This document shows, piece after piece, positions 20,348-37,259 of a stretch of DNA of 58,712 nt. The notes under the pieces were generated by a model. That model searched no databases, was not told the origin of the DNA, and saw only the letters and a program-made list of their open reading frames with translations. Made by a program: the position numbers and the translations under genes. The first letter of the stretch is position 1. Each line of letters starts with the position of its first letter. The stretch spans positions 1-58,712 of the IMG/VR virus record IMGVR_UViG_3300014962_000008. The stretch is one strand, 5' to 3'. This DNA comes from a virus.

Positions 20348-20358
20348 CCCAACCTCTC

Positions 20359-20374
20359 GGGGGCTTCGGCCCCC
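20359..20374 (+). terminator. TTCG-loop hairpin after the first early gene
   Basis: GGGGGC-TTCG-GCCCCC forms a 6-bp stem 12 bp past the stop of the 20045-20347 gene. No T-run follows, so it probably attenuates or protects the mRNA end. The same 16 nt form the core of the hairpin after the major capsid gene. Confidence 0.55.
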
Positions 20375-20377
20375 ACC

Positions 20378-20397
20378 CATCAGCAACGCAGGAGTAC
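20378..20397 (+). promoter_or_regulatory. Conserved leader/ribosome-binding element before 20403
   Basis: CATCAGCAACGCAGGAGTAC contains the AGGAG ribosome site for the ATG at 20403. The same leader, with small changes, precedes the starts at 21165, 25751, 30764 and 37098. Its last 19 nt occur inverted at 34496-34514. Confidence 0.65.
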
Positions 20398-20402
20398 CCG
20401 AC

Positions 20403-20672
20403 ATGGCCCATCTCATCACCCCGCGCCTCAACATCAACGGCACCAGCGCCGTTGACCTGATCGACCCGCGCCGCAAGGCGATCGACCTGATCGGCGAGCT
20501 GGTCGAGACGCTCAAGCAGGTCACGCCCAACGGACGCGACTACCCGGCGGAGCACGCCACCCGTCTGAGTGGCGACCGTGCCACCCACTTCGACCGCCTG
20601 TCGGCCCTGCGCGACCTGCAGGCCGCCCTGCTTCAAGAAGCCGTACAGATCATGCAACAAGAGGAGGCTTGA
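20403..20672 (+). CDS. Conserved small early phage protein
   Basis: The 89-residue product begins MAHLITPRLNINGTSAVDLI and continues RRKAIDLIGELVETLKQVTP, PNGRDYPAEHATRLSGDRAT and RLSALRDLQAALLQEAVQIM. The NINGTS...NGRDY pattern with two flanking helices is familiar from small early proteins of many environmental phages; no function is known to me. Start supported by AGGAG in the conserved leader. Confidence 0.65.
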   Translation: MAHLITPRLNINGTSAVDLIDPRRKAIDLIGELVETLKQVTPNGRDYPAEHATRLSGDRATHFDRLSALRDLQAALLQEAVQIMQQEEA

Positions 20673-20898: not shown

Positions 20899-21099
20899 AT
20901 GACCGCAGACAACCAGCAACGCCGCCTCGACCTGAACAGCCTGCTGCTGACCTTCGAGAGCGACATCATCCGCCGATACGACCTACAGCGCGCCGACCCA
21001 CCGGAGGATTTCCTCGACATCGACGTTGACGCATCAGTCGCCAAGGTGAGCACGCGCATTGAGCGCATCCGCGAGAAGATCCTTGCCTACGCAAACTAG
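20899..21099 (+). CDS. Small early protein, unknown
   Basis: 66 residues, MTADNQQRRLDLNSLLLTFE at the start and KVSTRIERIREKILAYAN at the end; strongly helical and charged, with a central FLDIDVDASVA. GAGGGAG precedes the start. The fourth gene of the first early transcript. No family recognised. Confidence 0.55.
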   Translation: MTADNQQRRLDLNSLLLTFESDIIRRYDLQRADPPEDFLDIDVDASVAKVSTRIERIREKILAYAN

Positions 21100-21102
21100 C
21101 GC

Positions 21103-21156
21103 TTGCAATGTAGCATTGCACGTGCCAGACAGGACAACCAATCAGCAACAAAGGAG
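21103..21156 (+). promoter_or_regulatory. Early promoter-leader cassette 2 (degenerate -10)
   Basis: TTGCAA (21103-21108), a second TTGCA 13 bp on (21116-21120), and leader AATCAGCAACAAAGGAG before the ATG at 21165. At 17-bp spacing the -10 position reads CAGACA, so a second factor or a different start is likely. Confidence 0.5.
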
Positions 21157-21164
21157 ACGCTGAC

Positions 21165-21437
21165 ATGTTTAAGTACCTCATCGCCGCAGCCGCGCTGCTC
21201 ACGCCCACCGCCGCCAGCGCAGCCGAGATCATGATTACCTCCGGGCGCCAGAGCGTCCTGACCGAGGCCGCCAAGACCATCTGCCGCACGGTGATGGAGA
21301 CCAAGGGGCGGGCGGGCGAGACCTTCGACCGCGAGGTGTCCTACCTCCGCCTCACCCCCGACGAGCAGGTCTACCTGCTCTCGCTGTGCGTCCTCTACGC
21401 GCAGGGCCGTGTTGATCAGGCAAGGGCGCAGCGGTGA
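21165..21437 (+). CDS. Secreted/periplasmic early protein with signal peptide
   Basis: The 90-residue product begins MFKYLIAAAALLTPTAASAA, a clear Sec signal peptide with a likely cut after A-S-A (residues ~17-19). The mature ~70 residues (EIMITSGRQSVLTEAAKTIC, SYLRLTPDEQVYLLSLCVLY, RVDQARAQR) contain two Cys that could form a disulphide in the periplasm. Exported early phage proteins often act in superinfection exclusion or envelope defence, but nothing here proves that. It has its own promoter-leader cassette and precedes a run of overlapping small genes. Confidence 0.65.
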   Translation: MFKYLIAAAALLTPTAASAAEIMITSGRQSVLTEAAKTICRTVMETKGRAGETFDREVSYLRLTPDEQVYLLSLCVLYAQGRVDQARAQR

Positions 21438-25596: not shown

Positions 25597-25691
25597 TAGC
25601 AGCCATCATCTCCCTGACTGCGGTCGTTGTGGCCATCGTCGCGGGCGATTGGCTGGGGCGCGCAATCAGTGAATGGAAAAAGTTCAAATAG
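25593..25691 (+). CDS. 32-residue single-membrane-span peptide (pair of 25498-25596)
   Basis: ATG at 25593 overlaps the previous stop (ATGA). The product is MIAAIISLTAVVVAIVAGDW followed by a charged tail LGRAISEWKKFK: a hydrophobic helix with a positive C-terminus, which predicts the tail in the cytoplasm. The tandem, coupled arrangement suggests the two peptides work together. They differ from the holin at 54743-55003. Confidence 0.5.
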   Translation: MIAAIISLTAVVVAIVAGDWLGRAISEWKKFK

Positions 25692-25745
25692 GGTATTGCA
25701 ACGCTCCGTTGCATGGCTTATGGGTCAGTCATCAGCAACGGAGAT
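25686..25745 (+). promoter_or_regulatory. Early promoter-leader cassette 3
   Basis: TTCAAATAGGG, then TTGCAA (25696-25701), 17-bp spacer containing a second TTGCA (25709-25713), TATGGG (25719-25724) and leader CATCAGCAACGGAG ahead of the ATG at 25751. It lies partly inside the end of the previous peptide gene. Confidence 0.65.
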
Positions 25746-25750
25746 ACCCC

Positions 25751-26038
25751 ATGAACAACCCTGAATATACCGCCCACGCCATCAACGAAGCCCTTTCCGG
25801 GCATGGCATCGGCGTAGTCTGGGACGGCAGCGAGGCGGAAGCCGATGGCGTTGAGCTGTTCTACGTCTGCGCAGACGGCGACGACACCGACCTGATCGTC
25901 TTGGATCACGGCTACTGCCTCGAGATCGTAGAGAATGTGGGCGACCGCTCCTACGTGTCGGTCGACGAGGCAATGAGCTTCGATAGTTTGGCCGCCAAGC
26001 TGGTGAACATCATTGACCGACTGGGAGAAGAGGTATGA
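25751..26038 (+). CDS. Small acidic early protein
   Basis: 95 residues, start supported by cassette 3 and its leader. The sequence is acidic (WDGSEAEADGVELFYVCADG, DDTDLIVLDHGYCLEIVENV, SVDEAMSFDSLAAKLVNIID). It may be a DNA mimic or a small binding protein; no family is recognised. Confidence 0.6.
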   Translation: MNNPEYTAHAINEALSGHGIGVVWDGSEAEADGVELFYVCADGDDTDLIVLDHGYCLEIVENVGDRSYVSVDEAMSFDSLAAKLVNIIDRLGEEV

Positions 26039-33563: not shown

Positions 33564-34148
33564 ATGGCTACTCGCATTATGCTCAAGAACGTCGTTCTGG
33601 CTTTCCCGGCTCTGGCCGAACCGCAAGCCTTCGGTGAAGGCGACCCGGCTTATGGCGCAAAGTTCCCCATTGAACCTAACAGCGAACAGCAGAAGGCCAT
33701 TGAAGCCGCAATGCTGGCCGAGGCCAAGGAGACGTGGAAGGACAAGGCAGACAGCGTTCTGAAGATGCTGGCCGAAGACAACAAGCTGGCCTTCACCAAG
33801 AAGGTCTATCGGTCAAAGAAGACTGGAGAGGCCTATCAGGGCTTCGAAGGCAAGCACTACCTGTCCGCGCGCAATGCCAAGACCCAGCCGACTGTGTTTA
33901 ACCAGTATGGCGAAGAACTGGCCAGCAAGGGCGACATTGAGCGTCAGGCGTTCAGCGGTGCCGTTGTCAACGCCTCGATCGAGATCTGGGCGCAGGACAA
34001 CAAGTGGGGCCGTCGCATCAACTGCTCGCTGCGCGGCGTCATGCTGACCGGCGAGGGTGAAAACTTCGGTGGGGGCTCTAGCCCAGCCAGCGCCGATGAA
34101 TTTGCCTCTCTGGCCAAGGCCAAGGCCGATGCGGAGGACATCCTGTGA
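33564..34148 (+). CDS. DUF2815 single-stranded DNA-binding protein
   Basis: 194 residues. It starts [20 protein letters not shown], has a beta-barrel-like run ([40 protein letters not shown]), [20 protein letters not shown] and [20 protein letters not shown]. This matches DUF2815, an OB-fold-like ssDNA-binding protein common beside DUF2800 and phage polymerases. It would coat ssDNA during replication or annealing. Confidence 0.8.
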
Positions 34149-34399
34149 GCGACGCCGGGCACAACGTGACCGACGACCGCCTGCGTCTTCTGATCGAGCG
34201 CGTCGAGCGTTTGGAAGAAGAGAAGGCGGCTATCGCCGATGACATCAAGGATGTGTTCCTTGAGGCCAAGGCGGTAGGCTACGACGCCAAGATCATGAAG
34301 CAGGTGATCCGCCTGCGGAAGATGCAGCCCGACGACCGGCGTGAGATGGAAACCATCCTCGACCTGTACAAGTCGGCCCTTGGCATGGACCTACTTTAA
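34145..34399 (+). CDS. GapR-like nucleoid protein (DUF2312)
   Basis: 84 residues from GTG 34145, overlapping DUF2815 by 4 bp. The sequence [20 protein letters not shown], then [30 protein letters not shown] and a C-terminal [13 protein letters not shown] is a full-length match to GapR/DUF2312 as I know it from Caulobacter and other alphaproteobacteria. GapR forms a clamp on overtwisted AT-rich DNA and stimulates type II topoisomerases during replication. This copy sits directly before the polymerase gene, so it may relieve supercoils on the phage template or compete with host GapR. It is also the best pointer to an alphaproteobacterial host. Confidence 0.8.
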
Positions 34400-34411
34400 C
34401 ACTATAGGAGC

Positions 34412-34462
34412 GGTGTGACGGGATCATTGTCCCTCTGGCAATGTCGCTAAGCCCGTCACACC
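34412..34462 (+). repeat. 11-bp perfect inverted repeat before the polymerase gene
   Basis: 34412-34422 pairs fully with 34452-34462 around a 29-nt loop that contains a nested CATTG/CAATG pair. It starts 12 bp past the GapR stop and touches the second inverted repeat. In RNA it would be a stable stem; it could be a terminator, leader structure or processing site. Confidence 0.65.
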
Positions 34463-34545
34463 CTCTATTCTGGCGAGCCGCGCGAAGGTGCGGGTGTACT
34501 CCTGCGTTGCTGATACTCCTCCGCGCGGCTCACCAGAATAGAGGG
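34461..34545 (+). repeat. 24-bp inverted repeat with inverted leader in the loop
   Basis: 34461-34484 pairs with 34522-34545 with one C/A mismatch (23 of 24). The 37-nt loop contains, at 34496-34514, the exact reverse complement of the leader used at 20379-20397. The start codon of DNA polymerase follows 10 bp later. Confidence 0.75.
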
Positions 34546-34555
34546 ACTTATCAGC

Positions 34556-36553
34556 ATGGCCACTCTCTGGCTCGATCTCGAAACGTACAGCACCATCCCG
34601 ATCAAGAACGGCGCACACAAGTACGCCGAGGGCGCCGAGGTGCTCCTCGTTGCGTGGGCATGGGACGACGAGCCCGTGGTCGTGTGGGACTGCACAGAAG
34701 GCGTGTGGGATACCTTCGCGCACGGCTTGCAGAAGGCGGTTGATCAGGCGGAGAGCGTGGTCATCCACAACAGCGCTTTTGACCGCACGGTGTTGCGTCA
34801 CTGCGGCGTAAATATACCTGTGGAAAAAGTTGATGACACCATGATCACCGCTCTGGCGCACAGTTTGCCGGGTTCTCTGGGCCAGCTCTGTGACGTTCTG
34901 GGCGTGCCGCAAGATAAGTCTAAGGACAAAGCCGGTAGACGGTATATACAGTTGTTCACGAAGCCGTGTCCGAGGAACTGGAAGATACGGCGAGCAACGA
35001 GGGAGACACACCCTGATGAGTGGAACGCCTTCATCGAATACGCCCGCCTCGATGTGGACGCAATGCGAAACATACATCGACGCCTGCCTCATTGGAACAA
35101 TACACACGGTGAGCGGCACCTTTGGCGACTCGACCAGAGAATTAATGACCGTGGTGTGTCCGTCGATCTGGACTTCGCCCAATGCGCAATCGGAGCTTTT
35201 TCACGAGCTACGCGATCTCTGGCCACTCGTGCAGCCGCTCTGACGGGCGGTATTGTCTCCTCAACAACGCAGCGGCAGAAGTTCATTGACTACCTGCGCG
35301 ACGTGCGCGGCTTCGAGGCCGATGACCTGACCAAGGGCACCGTGGAGGGCTTGCTCAAGGGCGAGCTTGACCCGAAGGTGCGCGAGCTGCTGGAGATCCG
35401 GCAGCAGGCCGCAGCGACCAGCCCGGCCAAGTACAAGGTGCTGATCGAGGCGACATCGCGCGACGGACGCCTGCGCGGCACGATCCAGTTCTGCGGTGCC
35501 GCGCGCACCGGGCGCGATGCGGGGCGGATATTCCAGCCGCAGAACCTGCCCCGCTCGCCTGACTGGTTCGACGGCGAGGTGCAGGAAACCACGATCGAGG
35601 CCATCAAGCACGACTGCGAAGACATCATTTATGAGAACGTCAGCGAACGCTGCGCCTTCGCGGTGCGCGGGACGCTGCTGGCCGCGCCCGGCAAGAAGCT
35701 TGTCATTGCCGACTTGTCGAACATCGAAGGCCGCGTGCTGGCGTGGCTGGCGGGTGAGGATTGGAAGATCGAAGCCTTCAAGGAATACGACAAGGGCGTT
35801 GGGCCTGACCTCTACAAGGTGACCGCCGGGCGCATCTTGAACAAAGATCCGTTCGAAGTTACCAAGACCGAGCGACAGAACCAAGGCAAGGTTCCCGAAC
35901 TAGCGGGGGGCTACGGGGGCGGGCTGGGTGCGTACCGCAAGATGGGTGGAGACACCTTCAACGCCATGGACGATGACACGATCGGGGGGATCGTGCAGGC
36001 ATGGCGCGCGGCGCACCCAGCCACAAAACGCCTGTGGTATGATGTCGAGGGCGCCGTTCGCTCCGCCGTCCGTGAGCCGGGTGAGAGCTTTGAAGTGCGC
36101 GCCCTGCTGCGCGTCGACACGGCCAAGGGCCCGGACAACGTGGACTACGTCCGCATCCGCCTGCCGAGCGGTCGCTACCTGTGCTACCGCAACATGCACA
36201 TCACCTCCGGCGACGATGAGTTCGGCGGCAAGGTGGCGGGGCAACTCGTCTACGAGGGCGTCAACCAGTTCACGCGCAAGTGGGAGCTGCTGGAGACCTA
36301 TTACGGCAAGCTGGTCGAGAACATCGTGCAGGCCATCGCCCGGGACGTGTTCATGTCCGGCATGCGCCGCGCCGAAGAGGCTGGCTATTGCGTCGTCCTG
36401 CGCGTGCATGACGAACTGGTCTGCGAAGTGCCAGACGATCCGTCATACACGCACGAGCAACTGGCCGAGATGATGGCCACGAACCCTAGCTGGTCACTTG
36501 GCCTGCCGCTGGCAGCGGCTGGCTTCGAAAGCTACCGATACAGAAAAGAATGA
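34556..36553 (+). CDS. DNA polymerase, family A
   Basis: 665 residues. Exonuclease: LDLET (D7, E9), HNSAFD (D76) and YARLD (Y162, D166), so proofreading looks intact. Polymerase: motif A IADLSNIEGR (D386), motif B with R440, K445 and YG (453-454), motif C VHDELV (H618-E620). It replicates phage DNA. ATG at 34556 follows GAGGG and the two inverted repeats at 34412-34545. It is in the same direction as helicase, nuclease and SSB genes. Motif A has DLSNIEGR rather than the common DYSQIELR, a variation seen in other phage polymerases. Confidence 0.9.
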   Translation: MATLWLDLETYSTIPIKNGAHKYAEGAEVLLVAWAWDDEPVVVWDCTEGVWDTFAHGLQKAVDQAESVVIHNSAFDRTVLRHCGVNIPVEKVDDTMITALAHSLPGSLGQLCDVLGVPQDKSKDKAGRRYIQLFTKPCPRNWKIRRATRETHPDEWNAFIEYARLDVDAMRNIHRRLPHWNNTHGERHLWRLDQRINDRGVSVDLDFAQCAIGAFSRATRSLATRAAALTGGIVSSTTQRQKFIDYLRDVRGFEADDLTKGTVEGLLKGELDPKVRELLEIRQQAAATSPAKYKVLIEATSRDGRLRGTIQFCGAARTGRDAGRIFQPQNLPRSPDWFDGEVQETTIEAIKHDCEDIIYENVSERCAFAVRGTLLAAPGKKLVIADLSNIEGRVLAWLAGEDWKIEAFKEYDKGVGPDLYKVTAGRILNKDPFEVTKTERQNQGKVPELAGGYGGGLGAYRKMGGDTFNAMDDDTIGGIVQAWRAAHPATKRLWYDVEGAVRSAVREPGESFEVRALLRVDTAKGPDNVDYVRIRLPSGRYLCYRNMHITSGDDEFGGKVAGQLVYEGVNQFTRKWELLETYYGKLVENIVQAIARDVFMSGMRRAEEAGYCVVLRVHDELVCEVPDDPSYTHEQLAEMMATNPSWSLGLPLAAAGFESYRYRKE

Positions 36554-36761: not shown

Positions 36762-37051
36762 CCCCGGCAGGCAAGCTGCAGGGGCACCTGCGCAAGCTGG
36801 TGCAGGGCAGCGGGGGTCAGTACCGCAAGATCCGCTACGAGGGGCGCAGGGGCTGCCCAGACTGCCTGATATGGTGGGACTGGCCTGCCCTCGCCTTTGT
36901 CGAGATCAAGGCGGAGGGTGACCGCTACAGCAAGCTGCAGGAGCGTGAGATTGAGCGCATGCGCGCGGCGAATATCCCCGTATTCACCGCAAGGACTGCG
37001 GAGGATGTGGAAAAAATCGTTGACCTAGTTAAAAAGGGGGTTGCAACCTGA
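36758..37051 (+). CDS. VRR-NUC family nuclease
   Basis: ATG at 36758; 97 residues, short and complete. It starts MTPAGKLQGHLRKLVQGSGG, has RKIRYEGRRGCPDCLIWWDW (PD catalytic pair) and ALAFVEIKAEGDRYSKLQER (E-x-K), and ends AEDVEKIVDLVKKG. This is the VRR-NUC fold of structure-selective nucleases. Phage members probably resolve branched DNA. Overlaps the preceding small gene by 4 bp. Confidence 0.8.
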   Translation: MTPAGKLQGHLRKLVQGSGGQYRKIRYEGRRGCPDCLIWWDWPALAFVEIKAEGDRYSKLQEREIERMRAANIPVFTARTAEDVEKIVDLVKKGVAT

Positions 37052-37090
37052 CATTGCAAGTGCTATAAGGGCGCATCAGCAACGAAGGAG
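37033..37090 (+). promoter_or_regulatory. Early promoter-leader cassette 5
   Basis: GGGGGTTGCAACC, TTGCAA (37041-37046), second TTGCA 13 bp on (37054-37058), 17-bp spacer, TATAAG (37064-37069), then CATCAGCAACGAAGGAG before the ATG at 37098. With cassette 4 it is the clearest sigma70-like match. Confidence 0.7.
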
Positions 37091-37097
37091 TAACCAA

Positions 37098-37259
37098 ATG
37101 TCCAAGACCCAAGCAGAACTGAAGGCCATTGCCTACTCGCTGGCCGACGAGATCGAGACCCGCGCTGCGCCCCGCATCAAGGCTGGGCTGAGCCGCGAGA
37201 AGGCCCTGATGCTGACTATCATGGAGCTGGGCGGCAAGATCACGATCGTGAAAGGGTAG
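37098..37259 (+). CDS. Small early protein, unknown
   Basis: ATG at 37098, after cassette 5; 53 residues: MSKTQAELKAIAYSLADEIE, then TRAAPRIKAGLSREKALMLT and a beta end KITIVKG. It is helical and basic-acidic balanced. Nothing recognised. Confidence 0.55.
   Translation: MSKTQAELKAIAYSLADEIETRAAPRIKAGLSREKALMLTIMELGGKITIVKG

Follow-up and report, generated by a model that had tools for sequence, protein, structure and literature searches.

Comparative sequence analysis of a conserved DNA polymerase leader RNA, a probable antisense regulator of phage messages

To our knowledge, promoters, sigma factors, antiterminators and repressors are nearly always held responsible for the temporal control of phage genes. 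Alphaproteobacterial sRNAs carry hairpin loops with CUCCU that are aimed at Shine-Dalgarno sequences. Among phage RNAs, the CI RNA of phage P4 (with seqA/seqC) is an antisense RNA in the leader of the replication/immunity operon that pairs with the phage's own transcripts (PMC4825925). The c4 RNA of P1/P7 (cited in PMC12197685) is an antisense leader RNA that also pairs with transcripts of its own phage. The IsrK leader RNA of Gifsy-1 has two roles, one as a segment of an mRNA and the other in trans, on a message of the phage (PMC4825925). The sar and sas RNAs of phage P22 are antisense RNAs that pair with phage messages, and sar blocks the initiation of ant translation (PMC12197685).

In this study, a leader element at positions 34412-34555 (plus strand) was analysed in a 58.7-kb virus record of IMG/VR, the whole of which is called the window. 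Like P4 CI and P1 c4 RNA, the element would be a phage leader RNA that pairs with transcripts of the same phage. P4 CI, which has to do with lysogeny, works through termination of transcription at one or two sites in its operon, whereas the element has one loop for a common address on several scattered genes, would cover the Shine-Dalgarno sequence and has no known lysogeny setting. IsrK, which can be likened to the element by description, has a single target next door and activates translation. The element is aimed at translation starts like P22 sar, but sar and sas have a single target each and the element has several, encoded elsewhere. The CUCCU sRNAs, also compared by description, are bacterial and their target set lacks a dedicated address. 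No Rfam match to the P4 CI / P1 c4 RNA family was obtained with the region or the whole window, and no description of the element was found in the open-access literature. The comparison of relatives makes it probable that the element is the 5' leader RNA of the polymerase gene and an antisense regulator that, on a set of phage mRNAs, covers the ribosome sites.

Locus and fold of the polymerase leader

The genes around the element were assigned by Pfam to DUF2800, a ssDNA-binding protein, a GapR-like protein, a family A polymerase and a VRR-NUC protein, and their order was that of Caulobacter phage RW. The Pfam matches (GapR_DNA-bd, DNA_pol_A) agreed with a first, sequence-only reading of this DNA, which had placed the element between a GapR-like gene and the polymerase. 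The features are listed in Table 1. In relatives, tblastn placement put the GapR-like gene directly 5' of the element in every copy checked, regardless of whether the polymerase or an inserted small gene came next. Small genes of various kinds were inserted exactly between element and polymerase in L005, L007, L010, L012, L019, L027, L028, L042, L218 and other contigs, and in these contigs it is therefore the inserted gene that has the element as its leader. L044 (phage RW, 3537-6419) and L494 (6001-8883) had polymerase genes that exceed that of the window by about 290 codons, and the phage RW polymerase matched in two pieces; the extra codons are possibly an intein.

A promoter-like sequence ended a few bases 5' of P1, with a TATA that was nearly invariant in 30 relatives. 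A strict consensus promoter scan gave no sigma-70 site for the polymerase leader, so that this promoter is a candidate only. Judged from its position, the RNA may start from it at P1.

Table 1. Positions of the element, its neighbouring genes and the target leaders in the window
Feature	Position	Strand	Details	Basis
GapR-like gene	34145..34399	+	84 aa	Pfam GapR_DNA-bd, E 1e-33
Candidate promoter	34380..34408	+	TTGGCA (34380-34385), 17 nt, TATAGG (34403-34408)	Sequence
Hairpin P1	arms 34412-34422 / 34452-34462	+	11/11 complementary	Fold and alignment
Hairpin P2	34461..34545; arms 34461-34488 / 34518-34545	+	28 nt, 2 mismatches, 29-nt loop	
P2 lower helix	34461-34473 / 34533-34545	+		Fold, alignment
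P2 conserved mismatch	34474 / 34532	+	C.A or U.U	Fold, alignment
P2 upper helix	34475-34484 / 34522-34531	+		Fold, alignment
P2 loop	34489..34517	+	Anti-Shine-Dalgarno CTCCT 34499-34503; antisense core GTTGCTGA 34506-34513	
Polymerase Shine-Dalgarno and cis copy	34540..34555	+	AGAGGG (34540-34545); ATCAGC (34550-34555)	Sequence; cis covariation
Family A DNA polymerase gene	34556..36553	+		Pfam DNA_pol_A
Target leader 1	20379..20405, site 20380	+	ATCAGCAACGCAGGAGTAC..ATG; gene at 20403, 89 aa	19-nt perfect match
Target leader 2	21141..21167, site 21142	+	ATCAGCAACAAAGGAG..ATG; gene at 21165, 90 aa	
Target leader 3	25731..25753, site 25732	+	ATCAGCAACGGAG..ATG; gene at 25751, 95 aa	
Target leader 4	37075..37100, site 37076	+	ATCAGCAACGAAGGAG..ATG; gene at 37098, 53 aa	

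Both inverted repeats of the first reading were recovered. The arms of the perfect 11-bp repeat (34412-34462) were complementary throughout, and the 24-bp repeat with one mismatch (34461-34484 / 34522-34545) was the inner part of the longer P2 stem. The two repeats overlapped by two bases (34461-34462). The plus strand of the region folded at -87.3 kcal/mol, compared with -58.2 ± 4.4 kcal/mol for 200 dinucleotide shuffles, none of which was as good (z -6.6). The 5' part of the P2 loop could form an apical helix that left GCTGAT free; in the predicted fold GCUGA was unpaired and CUCCU was loosely held in that helix. The Shine-Dalgarno sequence of the polymerase lay within the 3' arm of P2, a point that the first reading had missed. 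P2 is long enough to be a substrate of RNase III. The plus strand of the region had no G+C-rich stem with a U run, P2 being followed by ACUUAUCAGCAUG, and an attenuator in the form of an intrinsic terminator was thus not found. A search of Rfam with the region and the whole window gave no match above chance; the element is a family absent from Rfam, including its riboswitches and other cis-regulators.

Copies were collected via polymerase relatives and DNA patterns, and most were metagenome contigs of uneven completeness. Both hairpins were kept 3' of the GapR-like gene in at least 40 distinct IMG/VR copies; the stem pairing, whose conservation in related phages had been proposed as a check, was therefore retained. 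Among 30 distinct relatives and 38 pairs (the cis pairing described below included), standard pairs occupied 95.3% of cells, compared with 36-49% when the structure was slid. Changes on both sides were seen in 24 of the 38 pairs, and none of 500 shuffles reached any of the five measures, which indicated that the element acts as a plus-strand RNA fold. Such changes affected all 10 counted pairs of P1 and 13 of 21 in P2, and RNAalifold gave an independent fold of the aligned relatives. G.U combinations on the plus strand outnumbered A.C combinations 25 to 5, so the RNA of the element is the plus strand. This bias spoke against the proposed start of a minus-strand antisense RNA. A minus-strand transcript or gene in the loop was likewise rejected, because the leader sequence there has no start codon behind it and the wobble bias favours the plus strand.

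Long, near-perfect inverted repeats could also belong to an invertible DNA switch or be the scar of a small mobile element, both of which had been suggested. The loop, however, faced the same way with respect to its neighbouring genes in every copy examined, the arms occurred nowhere else in the genome, and the locus was fixed in relatives, where the arms diverged and their pairing was kept. As a conserved function, this origin is effectively refuted and has almost no probability left.

No isolated phage among the isolated-phage records of the collection carried the element. A scan of viral contigs for the loop pattern GTTGTTGATA found no recognised hairpin copies besides L014; the same scan of bacterial genomes gave three matches without hairpins, taken as chance, and no prophage copy with that pattern. 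Between its GapR-like gene and its polymerase, Caulobacter phage RW also has two stacked hairpins, in a gene order shared with the window (DUF2800, DUF2815/ssDNA-binding, GapR-like, polymerase). Unlike in the element, the P2 loop there is short and lacks the antisense core, and the phage RW genome was found to contain no UCAGCAAC leaders.

Loop core and the leaders of distant genes

Positions 34496-34514 of the P2 loop were the exact reverse complement, over 19 nt, of the leader at 20379-20397. This identity had been noticed in the sequence-only reading, which overlooked three more leaders with the same core (21142, 25732 and 37076). The motif CTCCTN0-2CGTTGCTGA occurred three times in the window, against 0.00 expected. 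Class 1 loops kept CUCCU-N0-3-GUUGCUGA, to which the leader UCAGCAAC-N-AGGAG is complementary. In 39 class 1 contigs, UCAGCAAC-N-GGAG leaders were located 3-15 nt 5' of an ATG, with 1-7 per genome. They were exclusively on the polymerase strand, and reversed-pattern controls gave zero. Three class 1 contigs, some of them fragments, had no leader (G016, G030 and G033).

The duplex of the loop with target leader 1 was calculated at -41.7 kcal/mol, and when the loop was paired with every predicted start region, all four window leaders gave some of the best duplexes. Fifteen start regions were bound below -25 kcal/mol, compared with a mean of 2.6 (maximum 7) for shuffled loops. In many phages the match of loop and leader was inexact in the spacer between core and Shine-Dalgarno; since these spacers differ, the duplex is often bulged.

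Some leaders were just 3' of a promoter-like TTGCAA-TATA block; others were mid-operon, right after a stop codon or hairpin. Because the motif was found in both settings, it belongs to the mRNA level. The target genes are probably early, as judged from their promoters and place. PHROG gave no match for the four target proteins of the window or for two class 3 targets. Two further features were observed around the leaders. A repeated, promoter-like block with two TTGCA half-sites (TTGCAA-N8-TTGCA) and an A+T-rich -10 preceded three of the four leader genes (21080-21160, 25670-25750 and 37010-37098) and was present in many relatives; a phage repressor or activator may use it as an operator. Directly 5' of some mid-operon leaders (20355-20378 in the window; L268; L303) there was a G-rich/UUCG/C-rich hairpin (GGGGGCUUCGGCCCCC or similar), perhaps a processing or partial termination site.

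The loop core and the leaders changed together. The leaders of class 1 genomes (loop GUUGCUGA) were 96 UCAGCAAC, 3 UCAACAAC and 2 UCAAGCAA. In class 2 (G038, contig L014; loop GUUGUUGA), all four leaders were UCAACAAC and none was UCAGCAAC or UCAAGCAA; this class is one phage with four leaders, and the sampling was uneven. The polymerase tree nested it in class 1, with a class 1 phage, L012, as its closest relative (support 100/100), so the change is derived. The class 3 loop UUGCUUGA defined a clade of L487, L490, L492, L493, L495 and L497. UCAAGCAA leaders were predicted from this loop before the search. None was present in the class 3 DNA around the polymerase; when whole contigs were searched, the three larger ones of class 3 proved to have UCAAGCAAGCAAAGGAG and UCAAGCAAGCACAAGGAG in front of start codons and no leaders of the class 1 kind. 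The tally for these contigs (G040-G042) was four UCAAGCAA, no UCAGCAAC and no UCAACAAC leaders. In all three classes, each leader hit was located on the strand of the polymerase, and reversed patterns gave none. The duplex energy of loops with their own leaders was -28.0, compared with -24.7 ± 0.8 for swapped duplexes (p 5e-5; class 1 alone, p 0.03). Two marks of a trans-acting antisense RNA of a phage were therefore found: complementarity to the ribosome sites of several mRNAs encoded elsewhere, and compensatory change of RNA and target, in classes 1-3 and in the swapped duplexes. As loop and address changed together in relatives, the RNA very probably pairs with these messages and controls the timing of their translation.

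A divergent clade, class 4 (L503, L504 and G048), kept the hairpins with a different loop (CCCUCCAGCGCGGUCGCG) and had neither the core in the loop nor core leaders. A de novo leader search in G048 found only an 11-nt match around one Shine-Dalgarno sequence and a shorter match at another. Antisense activity is consequently not universal among carriers of the hairpins.

Co-variation of the core would likewise result if a phage protein, binding DNA or RNA, recognised UCAGCAAC in the leaders and, inverted, in the loop, and several leaders do follow promoters with paired TTGCAA/TTGCA motifs. Such a protein site is very unlikely, because the leaders are tied to Shine-Dalgarno sequences and also occur mid-operon without a promoter, and because the loop is part of an RNA fold with plus-strand wobble bias. 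Nor would a protein account for the flanks of the cis copy, which co-vary by complementarity.

A second address copy before the downstream start codon

Between its Shine-Dalgarno sequence and the ATG, the polymerase gene of the window carries ATCAGC, which is complementary to the P2 loop and had also escaped the first reading. Most relatives had the address a second time, as GUUAUCAGC or GUGUAUCAGC, directly 5' of the downstream AUG; this copy is optional. Where present, its flank, (G)UUAUCAGC or GUGUAUCAGC, matched the loop flank without exception. The loop AAC occurred with UUAUCAGC (GUUA) in 10 of 10 cases and the loop ACAC with GUAUCAGC (GUA) in 22 of 22 (10:0 against 0:22; a p-value would be only indicative, as the copies are related). 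In the L128 type, the loop GAUCC was matched by GGAUC in cis. This co-variation suggests, at the level of sequence, that the downstream gene is autoregulated. A simple cis pseudoknot with P2 intact was rejected on geometry: the 0-2 nt available are too few to span more than 20 bp of helix. P2 must therefore be opened or cut for the cis pairing to form, or the two partners are on separate molecules.

An attenuator or RNA switch on polymerase expression had been proposed earlier. The conserved RNA fold and the downstream Shine-Dalgarno sequence support this part, but the inverted leader copy means antisense pairing in trans; the earlier interpretation was, overall, partly supported. Control in cis only, in which P2 and the pairing of the loop with the start region regulate the downstream gene and the likeness to leaders is incidental, would fit the Shine-Dalgarno sequence in P2, the co-variation of the cis flank and the hairpins without leaders of phage RW. 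It is strongly disfavoured by the co-variation of loop and leaders in two separate lineages, one of which (L014) has no cis copy, and by the Shine-Dalgarno complement kept in the loop, which the cis copy does not need; it is a very unlikely explanation.

The main rival of the antisense regulator is the reverse direction, in which abundant leader mRNAs invade the loop, compete with the cis copy and change polymerase translation by releasing its start, so that the loop would sense early transcription. In line with this direction, the loop bases that pair with the leaders in trans also pair with AUCAGC in cis, and the polymerase Shine-Dalgarno is located in P2. Invasion of the loop alone, however, would not open the lower P2 stem, and many phages with the trans pairing lack the cis copy (L014, L265, L185, L208, L498, L487 and others), so that the trans function is independent of it. 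The reverse direction is therefore rather unlikely, although clearly less so than control in cis only or a protein site.

Proposed mechanism and significance

The antisense regulator remains the best explanation. It draws on features of the compared sequences, namely compensatory changes in the hairpins, the bias to the plus strand, the set of leaders and the co-variation in trans and in cis. We infer that the loop pairs with the leaders in the cell and that the leader genes are repressed, with regulatory direction, timing and processing deduced in the same way, and that the hairpin is active either within the leader or once it has been cleaved. In the proposed mechanism, P1 and the long P2 stem would present the loop 5'-CUCCU-N-GUUGCUGA-3'. 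Pairing would most likely begin at the unpaired GCUGA of the loop, capturing the 5' part of the address. The duplex would then extend until the CUCCU of the loop covers the Shine-Dalgarno sequence of the target, and ribosomes would be blocked. RNA from the replication operon would in this way turn down the set of leader genes as replication begins. The cis copy would pair with the same loop and give feedback on the polymerase or the inserted gene.

A more tentative extension, which we consider possible but doubtful, makes the loop a hub that pairs, in a mutually exclusive manner, either with the address of many early mRNAs or with its own downstream start. RNA-RNA pairing alone would then count early against replication transcripts and time the switch from early expression to replication, and any gene could join by means of a 15-nt address.

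Phage leader RNAs that pair with transcripts of their own phage were already known; by comparison with them, what appears to be new is that a single loop would serve an address common to many genes. The comparison of sequences speaks for a regulon based on base pairing, with a single structured leader RNA and, in front of several genes, a common 15-nt address. The co-evolution of loop and address spans a group of relatives of Caulobacter phage RW that are apparently uncultured, and its three classes are natural antisense/leader pairs that are potentially usable as parts.
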